Program-made: the position numbers and the translations under genes
Part shown: piece by piece, positions 3,397 through 19,381 of the stretch
Numbering within the stretch: position 1 is the first letter of the stretch
How the letters are laid out: the number at the start of each line of letters is the position of its first letter
Notes under the pieces: generated by a model
Databases searched by the model: none
What the model was told of the DNA's origin: nothing
The model's input: only the letters and a program-made list of their open reading frames with translations
Assembly: GCA_001767435.1 (NCBI GenBank)
Contig: MEKT01000009.1
Coordinates: 1-37,414 of the forward strand
Origin: Acidobacteria bacterium RIFCSPLOWO2_02_FULL_65_29
Lineage (GTDB): Bacteria; Acidobacteriota; Vicinamibacteria; Vicinamibacterales; CAVVIG01
Direction of reading: 5' to 3'
Length of the DNA: 37,414 nt

Positions 3397-4803
3397 GTGA
3401 GACGGACCAAGATTGTCTGCACGATCGGCCCCGCGTCTGATTCCGAGGAAATGATCGGCAAACTCATCGTCGCGGGCATGAATGTCGCGCGCGTGAATTT
3501 TTCGCATGGGACGCACGATTACCATCGCATGGTCATACGGCGCCTCAAGAAGCTGCGAAAGAAACTCAACAAGCCGCTTGCCATCCTGCAGGATCTGCAA
3601 GGACCGAAAATACGCATCGGATCCATTGCTGGCGATCACGCCATGCTCCAGCCAGGCAAGACCGTGACCCTCACCACCGAAACCGTTCCCGGCGATAGCC
3701 GATTGATTTCGGTGTCCCTGAAGTCGCTGCCTCACGCCGTTTCAGTGGGCCACCCGATTCTCCTCGCGGACGGCCGCATCGAGCTTGTCGTCGAAAAGAT
3801 CTCGCCCCCCAACATCCTGTGCCGGATCGTCGTCGGCGGCGCGCTGACGTCGCACAAGGGCATCAACCTTCCCGGATCGGAGCTCCAGGTCGAGTCGATG
3901 ACGGCGAAGGATCGCAAGGATCTCAAGGTCGGCCTCGAAGAAGGTGTGGACGCCGTGGCCTTGAGCTTCGTTCGAAAGGCCGCGGACATCGTCGCCGCCA
4001 GGCGTGTGATCAAGAACAACGGCGGCAACATCCCGGTGATTGCCAAGATAGAGAAGCACGAAGCCGTCAACAACATCGACACCATCCTCGAGGCCGCCAA
4101 CGCGCTCATGGTGGCGCGCGGGGACCTTGGCGTGGAGATCGAACTGGAACGCGTGCCGCTCGTTCAGAAGATGGTGATCCGCAAGTGCAACGCGGCCGGC
4201 AAGCCCGTGATCACCGCCACGCAGATGCTCGCACGCATGGTGGACAGTCCTCGCCCGACACGAGCGGAAGCCACCGACGTCGCCAATGCCATTCTGGACG
4301 GCACTGACGCCGTGATGCTCTCCGAAGAAACGGCGGTGGGCAAGTACCCGGTCGAAGCCGTGCTGATGATGGACCGCATCGCGCGTTCAGCCGAGGGCAG
4401 CCTCGACTCGCTCGCCTTCGAAAACCTGCCGTTCGAGCCCGGCACGAGAGACGCCATCAGCCGCGCCGCGCACCTCATTGCCAAAGAAACGGGCGCTGCC
4501 GCGATCATCACGCCGACCTGGTCCGGATCGACGGCGTGCCTGGTGTCGCGCTTCCGCCCCAGACAGCTCATCCTCGCGTCGACGCCCAATGAGAATGCCC
4601 TGGACTTCCTGTCCCTCTGCTGGGGCGTCGTGCCGCTGAAGATTGCGGCGACCGACAGCATCGACGAGATGCTCCGCTACACGATCCACGCCGCCCGCAA
4701 GGCCGGTCTGCTGGAGTCCGGTCAGACCGTGGTGATCACCGGCGGTGTGCCCCTGCAGGTCGCCGGAAAGACGAACTTCATCAGAGTGGAGCGGATTGAC
4801 TGA
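3397..4803 (+). CDS. pyk: Pyruvate kinase
   Basis: Protein of 468 residues, the usual length for the compact bacterial enzyme. It converts phosphoenolpyruvate and ADP to pyruvate and ATP in the cytoplasm, the last step of glycolysis. Visible signatures are TKIVCTIGPAS at the N-terminus, NFSHG (34-38), LQDLQGPKIR (64-73), the catalytic Lys in IAKIEK (K217) and MVARGDLGVE (238-247), which binds the metal and substrate. Start is GTG at 3397, preceded by AAAAGGA at a suitable distance. The gene is divergent from the GMC dehydrogenase operon and appears to be transcribed alone. Bases 4804-4938 after it carry no clear terminator or gene. Confidence 0.97.
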   Translation: MRRTKIVCTIGPASDSEEMIGKLIVAGMNVARVNFSHGTHDYHRMVIRRLKKLRKKLNKPLAILQDLQGPKIRIGSIAGDHAMLQPGKTVTLTTETVPGDSRLISVSLKSLPHAVSVGHPILLADGRIELVVEKISPPNILCRIVVGGALTSHKGINLPGSELQVESMTAKDRKDLKVGLEEGVDAVALSFVRKAADIVAARRVIKNNGGNIPVIAKIEKHEAVNNIDTILEAANALMVARGDLGVEIELERVPLVQKMVIRKCNAAGKPVITATQMLARMVDSPRPTRAEATDVANAILDGTDAVMLSEETAVGKYPVEAVLMMDRIARSAEGSLDSLAFENLPFEPGTRDAISRAAHLIAKETGAAAIITPTWSGSTACLVSRFRPRQLILASTPNENALDFLSLCWGVVPLKIAATDSIDEMLRYTIHAARKAGLLESGQTVVITGGVPLQVAGKTNFIRVERID

Positions 4804-14810: not shown

Positions 14811-17300
14811 CTACGGAAAAGGACGTCTGCCGCCAAAAACGGCGGTCTGGATTTCCGTCGGCAGTCGCGCGAGCGTGGCGAGCCCGAGCCGGTCGGCAGC
14901 CGCGTTGTCGCCTTCGAACGAGAGCAGCGACGCTTCCCAGATGTCGGCGCCACGATCGCGCCACGCGAGATGCTCGGCGTGCAGCGAAGCGGCCGCTGTG
15001 CCGTCCACCGGACGTGCGCGAATTTCATCGAGACGCGCTTTCAGGGGTCTCGCGACAAACGCGTTGGCGCCGCCGTTCTCGATGCGCAGGTGCAATCGGG
15101 GACTCGCCAGTTCCACCCACGGACTCGCGTCGAGGTTGCGCGGAGTCGATTGCAGTCTCGGCTCGGTCGAATCGAGCGGTCCAACGAAATACATCCACAG
15201 GCCTGCCGGATGCGACAGGTACGGGTTGCTTCGGTCGGGACTTGCGGCCAGCGCGCGCGTCCGTTGGTCCGCGACTAGAGGGTCGAGCGGATCAGTGTGT
15301 CCGATCAACGCCACCACCGCCTCGCCGGCGTTGAAGTCGCCGCGCCAGAGGGTCGTGCGAGGGAAGACGTCCAGAAAGGACGCGGCGATGCTGTCGAACT
15401 CCGCCTCGGATATCTGATGGAGCGGAATCCACTGGCAATACAGTCCGCCGGGCGCGAGGACGCGGCGCGCGGCTGCGAAGCTGTCGCGCGTGTACAACGA
15501 CGATTCCCCGCGCCGCCACGGTACAACGAGGTCGCCGATCACGAGGTCGAAACGATCGCGCGTGGCGCCGAGGTAGCCGCGCGCGTCCTCCGCACGCACG
15601 CGGACGCGCGGGTCGTTCAGGATGTCGAGATTCGCCTCGAGAAACCACTCGCGTGCGGCCGACACCACCTCGGGGACGAGCTCCATGGCGGCGACTTCAG
15701 CAACCGGATGAAATCGGATCGCGCTCATCGAGATCGCAGTCCCGACGCCGAGATACGCGACGCGCTGCGGCCTCGGATGCAGCAGCAGCGGGATATGGCC
15801 CTGCAGCCGTTCATCGCCGGCGGACGCGGTCCCGCCGAGCACGTAGAAGTTGTCCAACTGAATCCGGCGGTGGCCCTCATGCGACACCACCGCAACCGTA
15901 CCGAATGCGCCTTCGTGCATGTCGAGCAACTGATCGGACGAGGCAAGCTTGATGCGCGGCAGTCCGCCAGGCGGCAAGACGAGGAATGCCGTCGCAATCA
16001 CAACAGCGGATGCCGCCAACGTGCGGCGGACAGACTGTCCGCCGGCGCTGGCAGCCGCCGCCGCAACCATCGACGCGAGGCCGAGAACGGCGAACGCGTT
16101 CCAGATGCCGACCGCCGGCACGAGCGCGAATGCCGCGACGAGCGGTCCGACGATGGCTCCGAGCGTATTCGCGGCGAGAATCGCGCCAACCGCGCGTCCG
16201 CTGTCGTCGGCCTGACCCTGCACCTCGATCAGCGCGGGAAGCGCGAGACCGAGCAGCGCGCTCGGCGCGAGCAATCCGGCGACGACGAAGGCGCCGAGCC
16301 GCAATTCGTGCGCCAGGAGGCCGGCGCCCCCGATGTAATCGAGGCCGGTCGTGCGAACGAAGATCGCGGGAAGCCACACCATCCACACGCCCGCAAGCGC
16401 CCAGCCGCTCGCGGCTATCGCGCGTGCGCGCGTACCGCGTCGCAGCATCGCGCGGGTAGCGGCCGCTCCGATCCCAAGTCCCGCGAGGAAAACGGCGACG
16501 ACAGTCGCGAACGAGTACACGGAGTTCTCGTGCACCAACGCAAATGCCCGTGTGGCGAGCGCTTCGAGCGCGAGCGTGATTGCTCCGGAAAAAAACGCCA
16601 ACTGGAGCGTCCCCACACGCGTGGCCTGAACCTGTTCGCGTTTGACTACGCAGGTCACCGGGCGCTGCGGCGCCGACGGTTGAGGCCGACGCGCAAGCAG
16701 CACGGCGCCGATCGCAATCAGCGCGTTCATCGTCATGATCGCGGCCAGCGCGCCGTTCGCGCCGAATGACGGGAGCAAGACGGCCGGAACAGCGAGGGCA
16801 CCGAGCGCCGCGCCCAGCGTGTTCGTCGCGTAGAGCCCGCCGGTGCGAACGCCGAGCGACTCTGTTGATCCGGCGACCTGCGACAGCACCGGCAGCGTAC
16901 CTCCCACGCACGTGGCGGGGACGAGAACGGCAACGGTCGCGATGCCGACTCCGAGCGCCAGCTGGACGACGGCGCGGTCAACGGATGTGTCGTAGAGGGA
17001 TTGGTACAGCGGCTCCATCGCGCGAAGCAGCGGCTCCACTGAAAGCGCTGAAATCGCCGTGGCCGCTTCGAGGGATGCGAACGCCAGCAGTGGCCGCTTC
17101 AGGCGATGCGAGAGGCGGCCGAGGAGGAAACTTCCGACGGCGAGGCCGCCGAAGAAGGCCGTCAGCGCTGCGGCCGCCGCGGGCGCCGTCGATCCGAGGA
17201 GCACCGAAAAACGGCGCATCCACAGCACTTCGTACGCGAGCGCGGCTGCGCCCGACAGGAAAAAGAGCGAATGGAGCGCCAGGCGCTGAGACCTCAACAC
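14811..17300 (-). CDS. Fused MFS-like membrane domain and spermidine synthase-like methyltransferase-fold protein
   Basis: Protein of 829 residues. Residues 1-445 hold about twelve or more membrane spans in two related halves; each half starts with a segment like FFLSGAAALAYEVLWMRRF or FFSGAITLALEALATRAFAL. Residues 455-730 form a spermidine-synthase-like Rossmann domain: motif I YLGVGTAISM (516-525), acidic E540 in AAMELVPEV, and D590 in VIGDLVVPW, the place of the polyamine-synthase catalytic Asp. The C-terminal 90 residues are helical, with no family seen. Such fusions are common in Acidobacteriota and related phyla; whether they make, move or modify polyamines is not established. The start is GTG (TTG is the next codon) with no strong ribosome-binding site. 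It follows the TlpA-like gene by 54 bp on the same strand. Confidence 0.87.
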   Translation of the reverse strand: MLRSQRLALHSLFFLSGAAALAYEVLWMRRFSVLLGSTAPAAAAALTAFFGGLAVGSFLLGRLSHRLKRPLLAFASLEAATAISALSVEPLLRAMEPLYQSLYDTSVDRAVVQLALGVGIATVAVLVPATCVGGTLPVLSQVAGSTESLGVRTGGLYATNTLGAALGALAVPAVLLPSFGANGALAAIMTMNALIAIGAVLLARRPQPSAPQRPVTCVVKREQVQATRVGTLQLAFFSGAITLALEALATRAFALVHENSVYSFATVVAVFLAGLGIGAAATRAMLRRGTRARAIAASGWALAGVWMVWLPAIFVRTTGLDYIGGAGLLAHELRLGAFVVAGLLAPSALLGLALPALIEVQGQADDSGRAVGAILAANTLGAIVGPLVAAFALVPAVGIWNAFAVLGLASMVAAAAASAGGQSVRRTLAASAVVIATAFLVLPPGGLPRIKLASSDQLLDMHEGAFGTVAVVSHEGHRRIQLDNFYVLGGTASAGDERLQGHIPLLLHPRPQRVAYLGVGTAISMSAIRFHPVAEVAAMELVPEVVSAAREWFLEANLDILNDPRVRVRAEDARGYLGATRDRFDLVIGDLVVPWRRGESSLYTRDSFAAARRVLAPGGLYCQWIPLHQISEAEFDSIAASFLDVFPRTTLWRGDFNAGEAVVALIGHTDPLDPLVADQRTRALAASPDRSNPYLSHPAGLWMYFVGPLDSTEPRLQSTPRNLDASPWVELASPRLHLRIENGGANAFVARPLKARLDEIRARPVDGTAAASLHAEHLAWRDRGADIWEASLLSFEGDNAAADRLGLATLARLPTEIQTAVFGGRRPFP

Positions 17301-17354: not shown

Positions 17355-17909
17355 CTAGCGGCCGCCCGCCGGCGCGGGTGAGGGCGCTGCTTCCATCAGG
17401 ATTCGGTCGAGCAGTTCGCGCAACTGCGTTTCGTCGGTCACGCCGGCGATCCGCGCCGCGATGCGGCCTTCCGTGTCCACGAACACCGTGTCGGGAATCC
17501 CCGGGCCGACGCCGAAGGCCGCCAGGTTCTGCTCCGACACCTCGAGCCAGACGGGAAATTGAATCGCGAGGTCGCGCATGAACTCTTCCACTTTGGGTCG
17601 CGACGAACGAGGCTCGTTGGCGGCACCGAGAAACTCCACGCCGCGGTCGCGATAGGCTGCGTACACCTTCGTGAACTCGGGCAATTCGCCCTTGCACGGC
17701 ACGCACCAGGTCGCCCAGAAATTCACGACGACGACCTTGCCCTTGAATTGGGACAGCTGGCGCCTTGCGCCCTTGATGTCGCTGAGCACGAGCTTGGGCG
17801 CCGGCGCGCGTTTTTCTATCGGTACCCACGCGTCCGCCGACCATGCGGGTCCGGCGAAGAGGAGAAGAGCGACGACGAACGACGAAGAACGAATGAATCT
17901 CGTGGCCAT
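17355..17909 (-). CDS. TlpA/ResA-like periplasmic thioredoxin
   Basis: Protein of 184 residues with a signal peptide (SSSFVVALLLFAGPAWSA, cleaved near residue 25). The thioredoxin fold has WCVPC (C69, C72) in VVVNFWATWCVPC, and the cis-Pro region reads VGPGIPDTVFVD. Members of this family are exported disulfide reductases used in cytochrome c maturation or in reducing specific periplasmic proteins. The Pro/Ala-rich tail is probably disordered. The start codon lies only about 15 bp beyond a strong terminator on the same strand and no ribosome-binding site is visible. Its expression is therefore likely to depend on read-through or an unusual leader. Confidence 0.9.
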   Translation of the reverse strand: MATRFIRSSSFVVALLLFAGPAWSADAWVPIEKRAPAPKLVLSDIKGARRQLSQFKGKVVVVNFWATWCVPCKGELPEFTKVYAAYRDRGVEFLGAANEPRSSRPKVEEFMRDLAIQFPVWLEVSEQNLAAFGVGPGIPDTVFVDTEGRIAARIAGVTDETQLRELLDRILMEAAPSPAPAGGR

Positions 17910-17923
17910 GGTGTTGTCACATG

Positions 17924-17956
17924 AAAAAAGAGCCAGGGCCCCAAGAGGGCCCTGGC
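17924..17956 (-). terminator. Rho-independent terminator after the outer membrane protein gene
   Basis: On the minus strand a perfect 10-bp stem (GCCAGGGCCC paired with GGGCCCTGGC, 5-base loop) is followed within two bases by six T residues. It lies 22 bp past the stop of the outer membrane protein gene and immediately before the tlpA-like start codon. This is the clearest intrinsic terminator in the window. Confidence 0.87.
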
Positions 17957-17977
17957 CCTGATTGACGAAAGGCCGTT

Positions 17978-19051
17978 CTAGAATTTCCGCGTGAATCCGG
18001 TCAGAAGGAGCCAGTCGGCGAACGCTGCGTCGCCGTGCGCGCCTCTTGCCGCGTCCGGCACGCTGATGAACCGGTTCCTGTAGATCGCGACAGGAACTCC
18101 GAACGTGAAGGAGTTATTCCCCTTGGCGATGGTGATCGACGGCTCGAACGAAACGGCGACTCCCGGACGCCGGAAGCCGTTGTCTCCGCCCATGATGTCG
18201 CGGGCGGGAACGCCCTCGACCCGTACCCCTGCGCTGGCAGACACGCTCGTGGTCTTGGGGACCGTGAACCCAAGCCCTCCCCGCAGCAGGAACTGGTCGG
18301 CGATCGACATGACTTCCTCGCCGCGCCCCCCGCGGTACGTCCGGACGTTGCTCTTCTCCTGAGGTGTGGCGAGGTACGCGGCGCCGGCGTACACCGAGAG
18401 CTTCGAAATGGCCTTGAACGTGGAGAGGTCGGCCAGGATGCCGAACCCGCCGTCACCTGGCTGGATCGACTGGTCCACCGTCCGAATCACGTTCGTGATC
18501 GTGCCCCCCGAAAGGACTCTGAACGTGTCGGTTTCGTTGTTGGCTCCCGTCGGAATCTTCACGCCGAAGCCGAGCTGCAGGTTGCCACCGGTGTGCGTGT
18601 CGGGATCGAACATCCAGCGCCGCGTCGAAACAAAGACGTCGCCGATGCCGCGCGCCGCCGTTTGATACCGCTCGAGCTCCACGCCGCTCTGGCGCAGCGA
18701 CTGCGAGCGCGTGGCCATGAAATACGGCACGCCGACCGAGATCTCGACGCGTCTCGTCGCCTGATACCTGATGCTCAAGTCAGCGAGGTTGACGTCGTTG
18801 ATGACCTGGCTGCCTTGTTCGTCCCGTTGCTCCTGATACTCGGACCCGACGAAGTGCCGGTCCGACTTCTGGTAGCGCCAGCCGAGCGACGCAGACCATT
18901 CGCCTGCGAGGGGGTACCCTCCGCCTAGCACGCCAAACCCGGGCGTGCCCATTCTCGCGGCCACTCAACCCTGGGCGAACGCGTGCTTGGGCGCGCCCAG
19001 CACGATGGCCGCCGCAAACACCACGACAACACCCTTACGCAGCAGTTTCAT
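17978..19051 (-). pseudogene. Outer membrane beta-barrel protein interrupted by an in-frame TGA after its signal peptide
   Basis: The ATG at 19051 has an excellent GGGAGG site and starts a signal peptide (LLRKGVVVVFAAAIVL, then KHAFAQG). Codon 29, at 18967-18965, is TGA. The same frame then continues for 328 codons as an outer membrane barrel: alternating strands such as LAGEWSASLGWRYQKSD, RRVEISVGVPYFMATRS, GNLQLGFGVKIPTGANNETD and SFTFGVPVAIYRNRF, ending in a C-terminal Phe (TGFTRKF), as is usual for barrels. The GTG right after the TGA has no ribosome-binding site and would give a protein with no signal. A Cys codon (TGC) or Trp codon (TGG) changed to TGA would explain it. It is either a recent pseudogene or a sequence error. 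A terminator follows the gene. The substrate is unknown; 'phenol pathway MetA-like barrel' is the nearest description. Confidence 0.78.
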
Positions 19052-19381
19052 CAGACCCGCCTCCCCGGTTTGAAATAGAGGCTTATGCTACAGACGCGCG
19101 ATAGAGAAAGCAACAGGGCGATCCGACGTTGTAACGTTTGTTGCTACAAGAGACTCTGCAGTTCGAGACTGAAATCGCTCTGTATTACAAGTTGTCACTC
19201 CATGTTCCAATTGAAACACAGTTGATTTTGTGTGTCCGTCTTCGCGCCGGCTACTGGAAGTCGTCGACGAGACGCAACCGCCGCGCATCGCGCGCATCAC
19301 GGTGAAGGTGTTCGTGTTGGCCGACCCGGAAACCGCAGCCAGGGTCGCCGCGGCTGCGGCAAGGCGACGAGTCCCGGTCAT
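19052..19381. other. Intergenic region, partly AT-rich
   Basis: About 330 bp between the outer membrane protein start and the SDR stop. Bases 19085-19230 are clearly richer in A+T than the neighbours and probably carry the promoter of the outer membrane protein gene. A weak minus-strand pair, TTGGAA and TAATAC with a 17-bp spacer, is present. The 97-codon minus-strand frame here has no recognisable domain and no ribosome-binding site, so it is not called. Confidence 0.45.

Follow-up and report, generated by a model that had tools for sequence, protein, structure and literature searches.

Does the in-frame TGA that directly follows the signal peptide of a predicted outer-membrane protein end this gene, or is it read as an amino acid? 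The question arises in the window, the 37,414-nucleotide stretch of DNA analysed here, which is contig C9 of a 5.5 Mb assembly (239 contigs, 97% complete) of Acidobacteria bacterium RIFCSPLOWO2_02_FULL_65_29. A preliminary description of this DNA had reported GGGAGG, an ATG, a signal peptide with cleavage at AFA, a TGA at codon 29, and a continuation of the same frame for 328 codons to a terminal Phe; all of these elements and their coordinates were confirmed by re-reading (Table 1). The TGA lies two codons past the signal-peptidase site and, if it is counted as sense, the protein has 357 residues and ends in ...TRKF. We propose that this barrel protein is a selenoprotein with selenocysteine (Sec) at mature position 3, a reading to which we assign a probability of roughly 0.93 on sequence evidence, and which is founded on a conserved TGA/Cys position, a covarying hairpin, the presence of SelA, SelB, and SelD in the genome, and fold prediction. 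Beyond this, we infer actual Sec insertion, as well as the position of Sec in the pore, its partner, and the substrate.

Table 1. Features of the barrel protein gene and its downstream neighbour in the window
Feature	Position	Strand	Remarks
Barrel protein gene	17978–19051	minus	ATG 19049–19051; internal TGA; final stop TAG 17978–17980
GGGAGG, ribosome-binding-site-like	19060–19065	minus	8 bases ahead of the ATG; direct sequence reading
Signal peptide, 26 residues, ending ...KHAFA	18974–19051	minus	signal peptidase I cut placed, by inference, before Q27
In-frame TGA, codon 29, proposed Sec codon	18965–18967	minus	mature position 3, Q-G-Sec
bSECIS-like hairpin	18927–18949	minus	8-bp stem, 7-nt loop CGGGTTT
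Mature barrel protein, 331 residues	17981–18973	minus	COG4313/FapF-type fold, predicted; mean pLDDT 94.3
Terminator-like hairpin, strong	17929–17959	minus	between the barrel and thioredoxin-like genes; 14 pairs, then a T-run
TlpA/ResA-like periplasmic thioredoxin, motif WCVPC	17355–17909	minus	proposed redox partner

Relatives were collected by tblastn of public genomes with the part of the protein downstream of the TGA, and the best 80 of 404 relatives were kept. An in-frame Q-G-x motif was present in 79 of these best 80, with x encoded by TGA in 18 and by TGC or TGT in 61; these loci were chosen only on downstream similarity, and the presence of the motif in frame argues against search bias. 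The 80th locus, L017, has Q-G-TGA and the hairpin intact at 3948–4007 in another frame, with a frameshift shortly after, which could be a genuine lesion or an error in the MAG. In whole-genome searches, 8 of the 162 genomes of the order and 37 of the 396 genomes of the phylum had a match, so the gene is patchy. At least 22 of the 45 phylum matches contain an internal stop, in each case exactly one TGA, the count being a lower bound because L121 was listed without a stop yet has a TGA. Inspection of 37 new loci yielded a Q-G-x site in 31, no usable site in five (L105–L108 and L127), and Q-S-Cys in L115. When the best 80 of 404 (L017 added) were combined with the new loci, four exact duplicates dropped, and the window included, 108 distinct sites were obtained.

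Among these 108 distinct sites, 33 carry TGA (the window and 32 others) and 75 carry TGC or TGT, with no other codon present; TAA, TAG, and TGG are all absent. Sites were located by the motif Q-G followed by Cys or a stop, which makes Q and G partly a selection effect, while TAA and TAG would have passed. UGA is thus aligned with a conserved Cys of homologues, and an alignment of orthologues at the residue after AFAQG, as the preliminary description had proposed, returned TGA or Cys only. Of the two codons that it had put forward for the position, TGC (Cys) stands, Cys being the residue encoded in 75 of 108 distinct genes, whereas TGG (Trp) was never seen. The underlying idea of a lost codon is not upheld: no codon was lost, and the TGA is best read as selenocysteine, which had not been proposed. 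Family genes occur in Acidobacteriota, Planctomycetota, Verrucomicrobiota, Bacteroidota, and others, including Candidatus Wallbacteria; Bacteroidota, like Gemmatimonadota, contribute Cys forms, and species of Salegentibacter, Phaeodactylibacter, and Christiangramia are represented in the set. A search of plasmids for relatives of the barrel gave no match.

The TGA of the window is followed by a hairpin with a spacing of 23 nt from the TGA to the start of the loop, a loop of 7, a stem of 8, and a folding energy of –13.2 kcal/mol when taken alone. Sites were evaluated against the bSECIS limits published in PMC13188914, which include a hairpin within 16–37 nt, with the additional requirement of a contiguous stem of at least 5 pairs. 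A hairpin within these limits is present in 30 of the 33 TGA genes (window included) versus 7 of the 75 Cys genes. Synonymous-codon shuffles using each gene's own usage gave expectations of 12.3 TGA and 4.4 Cys sites; protein sequence alone therefore does not explain the TGA hairpins. Were the rows independent, 30 or more passes would have a probability of about 1e-11; the rows are, however, not independent. The three TGA sites that failed the contiguous-stem test are L004, L019, and L121.

Most TGA genes share the loop CGTGNTT or CGTGNTC above a GC-rich stem. Across 32 of the 33 TGA sites (L039, whose hairpin is located elsewhere, left out), compensatory changes occur in 5 of 7 pairs; paired cells amount to 93.1% versus 83.9% in shuffled alignments, with 0 of 500 shuffles as high, and compensatory cells number 17 versus 3.7. 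Sliding the partner column by 1–3 columns abolished this covariation pattern. The window hairpin, with its loop CGGGTTT, departs from the consensus, and its pairing is kept via changes on both sides. Folded alone, the 46-nt stretch of the window does not favour the hairpin and prefers another structure (z –0.33); the 60-nt fold contains it.

Turning to the decoding machinery, the genome to which the window belongs encodes SelA (462 bits), SelB (362 bits), and SelD (365 bits), each above its curated cut-off. All three are encoded on contig C60, where selD, selB, and selA are grouped and selA is cut by the contig end; the three proteins thus occur together in one genome. The SelD frame (C60:7132–8055) itself contains an in-frame TGA, within the motif G-TGA-A-A-K, which would be read G-U-A-A-K; UxxK is the SelD Sec position listed in PMC13188914. 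Judged from this motif, SelD of this organism is probably a selenoprotein too, and its in-frame TGA provides an independent argument for decoding of UGA as Sec in this organism. Searches of the assembly of 239 contigs (97% complete) for tRNA-Sec with Rfam RF01852, a model built from the tRNA-Sec of six relatives, and a pattern did not find it, the pattern giving 20 matches with 2 mismatches versus 10 in a backward control and nothing convincing. An RF01852 match over the cut-off in this genome, at C12:3864–3953 (L082), was rejected as tRNA-Sec, as ARAGORN shows it to be a tRNA-Ser(tga); it scores 48.9 bits against the RF01852 gathering score of 47. RF01852 alone is a trap for judging Sec machinery—scores of about 50 bits also mark ordinary long-arm tRNAs—and its matches over the cut-off in 36 of 50 genomes were not counted as machinery evidence.

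The survey of Sec machinery covered 50 of the 80 relatives' genomes, namely all 18 with TGA, L017, and 31 of the 61 with Cys, selected for taxonomic spread. SelB exceeded the cut-off in 14 of 18 TGA versus 12 of 31 Cys genomes, and SelA in 16 of 18 versus 10 of 31; one or the other did so in 17 of 18 TGA versus 12 of 31 Cys genomes (n = 49; Fisher p 1.8e-4). The TGA genome with neither SelA nor SelB over the cut-off is that of L009, and the L017 genome has SelA and no SelB over the cut-off. ARAGORN reported tRNA-SeC(tca) in 6 of 6 relatives' stretches. As a separate observation, the L032 genome (G014) carries two SelB and two SelA genes over the cut-off in one assembly.

These results allow the competing explanations of the TGA to be weighed. 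It could have arisen as an error in sequencing or assembly, or as a nonsense mutation recently acquired by a decaying gene, in keeping with the fragmentation of the assembly and with the long branch (0.88) of the window row on the protein tree; against this, 32 further distinct genes in other genomes have TGA at this codon, the hairpin is conserved and covarying, and all 57 of the alignment columns with at least 90% conservation among 70 other relatives are retained in the window protein. The earlier impression that both halves of the gene are intact is upheld. The conclusion then drawn—a recent change, a sequencing error, or a tolerated stop—does not agree with a TGA that recurs at this codon in 33 distinct genes across phyla, is followed by a conserved hairpin, and resides mostly in genomes with Sec machinery. 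Error or decay is refuted for the family as a whole and is extremely unlikely for the window gene.

Another possibility is that UGA is read as some other residue, through code reassignment, leaky readthrough, or insertion of Cys. UGA can be read as Cys by a tRNA-Cys with anticodon UCA, and both the Cys found at the aligned position in relatives and the failure to find tRNA-Sec in the assembly would suit a reading as a residue other than Sec. However, TGA ends 11 of 18 window ORFs picked by eye and so looks like a normal stop there; SelA, SelB, and a Sec-type SelD are present; ARAGORN reported tRNA-SeC(tca) in all six relatives' stretches; and the bSECIS-like hairpin tracks TGA rather than Cys codons, which leaves this explanation very unlikely. 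Termination at the TGA followed by reinitiation, with a leader peptide of 28 residues and the barrel as an ORF of its own, draws on the GTG, the supposed start, that directly follows the TGA in the window and many relatives. This codon is instead GTC, GTA, GTT, ATT, ATC, or TGC/TGT in other TGA genes, the Cys relatives have one open frame through the site, and the resulting barrel would be without a signal peptide; the probability of reinitiation is close to negligible. Insertion of Sec remains our preferred reading of the TGA.

The history of the site was followed on a tree of 107 proteins from which the first 20 mature residues were left out. At least five changes between Sec and Cys, in either direction, are required, four of them forced by well-supported branches. 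Locus L039 has the lone TGA among Verrucomicrobiota Cys genes and a different hairpin, with a spacing of 17 nt and the loop GGTC; this isolated position and the different hairpin at another spacing suggest an independent gain. Two genomes, G229 and G330, each contain a TGA copy plus a stop-free copy. The Gemmatimonadota locus L063, with TGC at about position 2371, has a very strong bSECIS-like hairpin (12 pairs, –22 kcal/mol), and its genome has SelB over the cut-off, a 74.5-bit tRNA-Sec match, and no SelA match; this locus may represent a recent Sec-to-Cys change.

All 108 distinct genes encode A, G, or S immediately before Q, and cleavage by signal peptidase I should therefore yield a mature N-terminus of Q-G-Sec or Q-G-Cys. 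Lipidation of the Sec or Cys was also considered. A lipobox calls for a small residue at –2 and, as a rule, L at –3; the sites used here have Q at –2 in every case (motif-selected), preceded by A, G, or S throughout, and lipidation was judged unlikely. The structure was predicted with an input of 71 of 105 complete mature sequences, picked for spread, and is a barrel, as the preliminary description had supposed, with approximately 25 residues ahead of strand 1, the first 20 of which have pLDDT 63–66. Its best fold match is the COG4313 channel Pput2725 (PDB 4rl8; Z 24.3, 2.5 Å over 255 residues, 11% identity), and its best Foldseek match is FapF (E 4.5e-14). Searched against PDB sequences, the family profile retrieved only FapF chains (5o65, 5o67, and 5o68; E 4.7e-11). 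On the strength of this model, we assign the protein as a predicted COG4313/FapF-type barrel. COG4313 and PF13557 (Phenol_MetA_deg) proteins are 12-stranded barrels; with the PF13557 profile, the window protein gave no match at E 0.001, and 20 of 71 members matched at E ≤ 0.01 (best 3.4e-8). The solved relatives have a corresponding N-terminal segment that occludes the pore, in or under it on the periplasmic side; by homology, Sec would sit in such a plug here.

Directly downstream of the barrel gene in the window, behind the terminator-like hairpin, is a gene for a TlpA/ResA-like protein with the motif WCVPC. With this protein as the tblastn query, 17 of 111 related loci contained a relative, and only 2 of these loci are those of TGA genes; no relative is more than 1.7 kb from the site, both sides of it and both strands are represented, and all of these loci, judged from their titles or from the searches of the order and phylum, are from Acidobacteriota. 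Where flanks of up to 4 kb per side were examined (80 loci), the TlpA-like relative occurs in 7, with none farther away. A simple scan for thioredoxin motifs found 3 of 22 TGA loci and 4 of 63 Cys loci, and the TlpA link therefore rests on tblastn. This proximity supports, but does not prove, a redox partnership of the barrel with the TlpA-like protein. Against a partnership speak the minority of loci that have this neighbour, the small share of TGA genes among them, and the terminator that separates the two genes in the window. Clustering of neighbours identified none common to most loci, the largest cluster apart from the barrel being response-regulator-like by its first residues and present in 18 of 81 loci. 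Near the barrel gene, positions 14811–17300 (minus strand) encode a fused membrane/spermidine-synthase-like protein; in the Planctomycetota loci L007 and L017, a gene for a relative of this protein closely follows that of the barrel.

Together, these elements probably form the following pathway. The mRNA would present UGA at codon 29, followed by a bSECIS hairpin bound by SelB, and the ribosome would insert selenocysteine at the UGA and continue translation through the barrel. Once cleaved by signal peptidase I, the exported protein would begin Q-G-Sec and fold into a COG4313/FapF-type outer-membrane barrel, with Sec carried on the first 25 or so residues, ahead of strand 1. The proposed Sec is the only Sec/Cys residue in 16 of the 25 TGA proteins of the alignment, the window protein included; among the 46 Cys proteins, 18 have a single Cys and up to 18 have a second Cys at mature position 11 or 12. 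As Sec stands without Cys in most Sec members, it would be expected to act with a partner rather than through an internal disulfide, for which the most likely candidate is the TlpA-like periplasmic thioredoxin that some members have as a neighbour. Sec could then serve as a redox-active or metal/metalloid-binding group at the periplasmic mouth of the channel; we hold this role, with a TlpA-like partner, tentatively and at somewhat less than even odds. More specifically, Sec might be a redox switch in the plug, such that a TlpA-like thioredoxin reduces or binds Sec and thereby opens, closes, or recharges the pore, a model we regard as doubtful and quite unlikely. If it held, the gate of an outer-membrane transporter would be a site of selenium chemistry that draws its power from the periplasm. 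Alternatively, Sec or Cys at the channel mouth may be a non-catalytic ligand for soft metals or metalloids, such as Hg, Cu, As, or Se species, and the TlpA-like gene would then be incidental. The solitary Sec of most TGA proteins and the restriction of the TlpA-like neighbour to 17 of 111 loci favour such a ligand; yet the invariant columns include no conserved His or Met beside Sec in the N-terminal segment, and a scan of ten window proteins revealed no recognisable metal-resistance gene. A purely ligand role is possible but rather unlikely.

The stop codon hides the barrel gene from standard annotation. If the selenocysteine reading is correct, a widespread barrel family would be a further selenoprotein family, and one of the few with Sec in an outer-membrane barrel, here as residue 3 of the mature protein and, in most members, with no Cys available for pairing. 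Because Sec and Cys have switched repeatedly within the family, naturally occurring pairs are at hand for examining the contribution of Sec beyond the cytoplasm.

A 2026 table in PMC13188914 lists 119 selenoprotein families, two of them at the outer membrane—the GSU2204 MtrB/PioB-type barrel and a TonB receptor. No row of this table describes the present barrel, no NCBIfam model matched the window protein at E 0.1 or better, and NCBIfam matches among the 71 members were weak or of FapF type only; apparently, the barrel is an unlisted selenoprotein family, although the groundwater-MAG survey of Deng et al. (2026) may list it among its unvalidated candidates. The GSU2204 family (seleno)protein (NF041027) is likewise an outer-membrane barrel annotated as a selenoprotein, but has CXXCH, whereas the window protein has no Cys besides its proposed Sec; NF041027 did not match the window protein and matched 1 of 71 members weakly (E 0.0015). 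The TonB-dependent receptor NF049945 (FCYXU) is similarly an outer-membrane selenoprotein predicted by deep-Sep; it differs in its motif, CxxU, and 0 of 71 members match it at E 0.01. The COG4313 channel Pput2725 resembles the window protein in its predicted fold but differs in sequence, at 11% identity, and the accessible part of its description mentions no Sec. FapF, the only PDB sequence match of the family profile and the best Foldseek match, is a plugged barrel, with a periplasmic coiled coil and a helical plug according to PMC5557850, where the window protein has only its short segment before strand 1. With the NCBIfam FapF model NF058560, the window protein gave no match at E 0.1 and 16 of 71 members gave one at E ≤ 0.01; the ten window proteins scanned include no recognisable Fap neighbour. 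With the known SelB/bSECIS selenoproteins, as set out in PMC13188914, the barrel family shares the alignment of UGA with Cys, a bSECIS-like hairpin at 16–37 nt, and the accompanying Sec genes.
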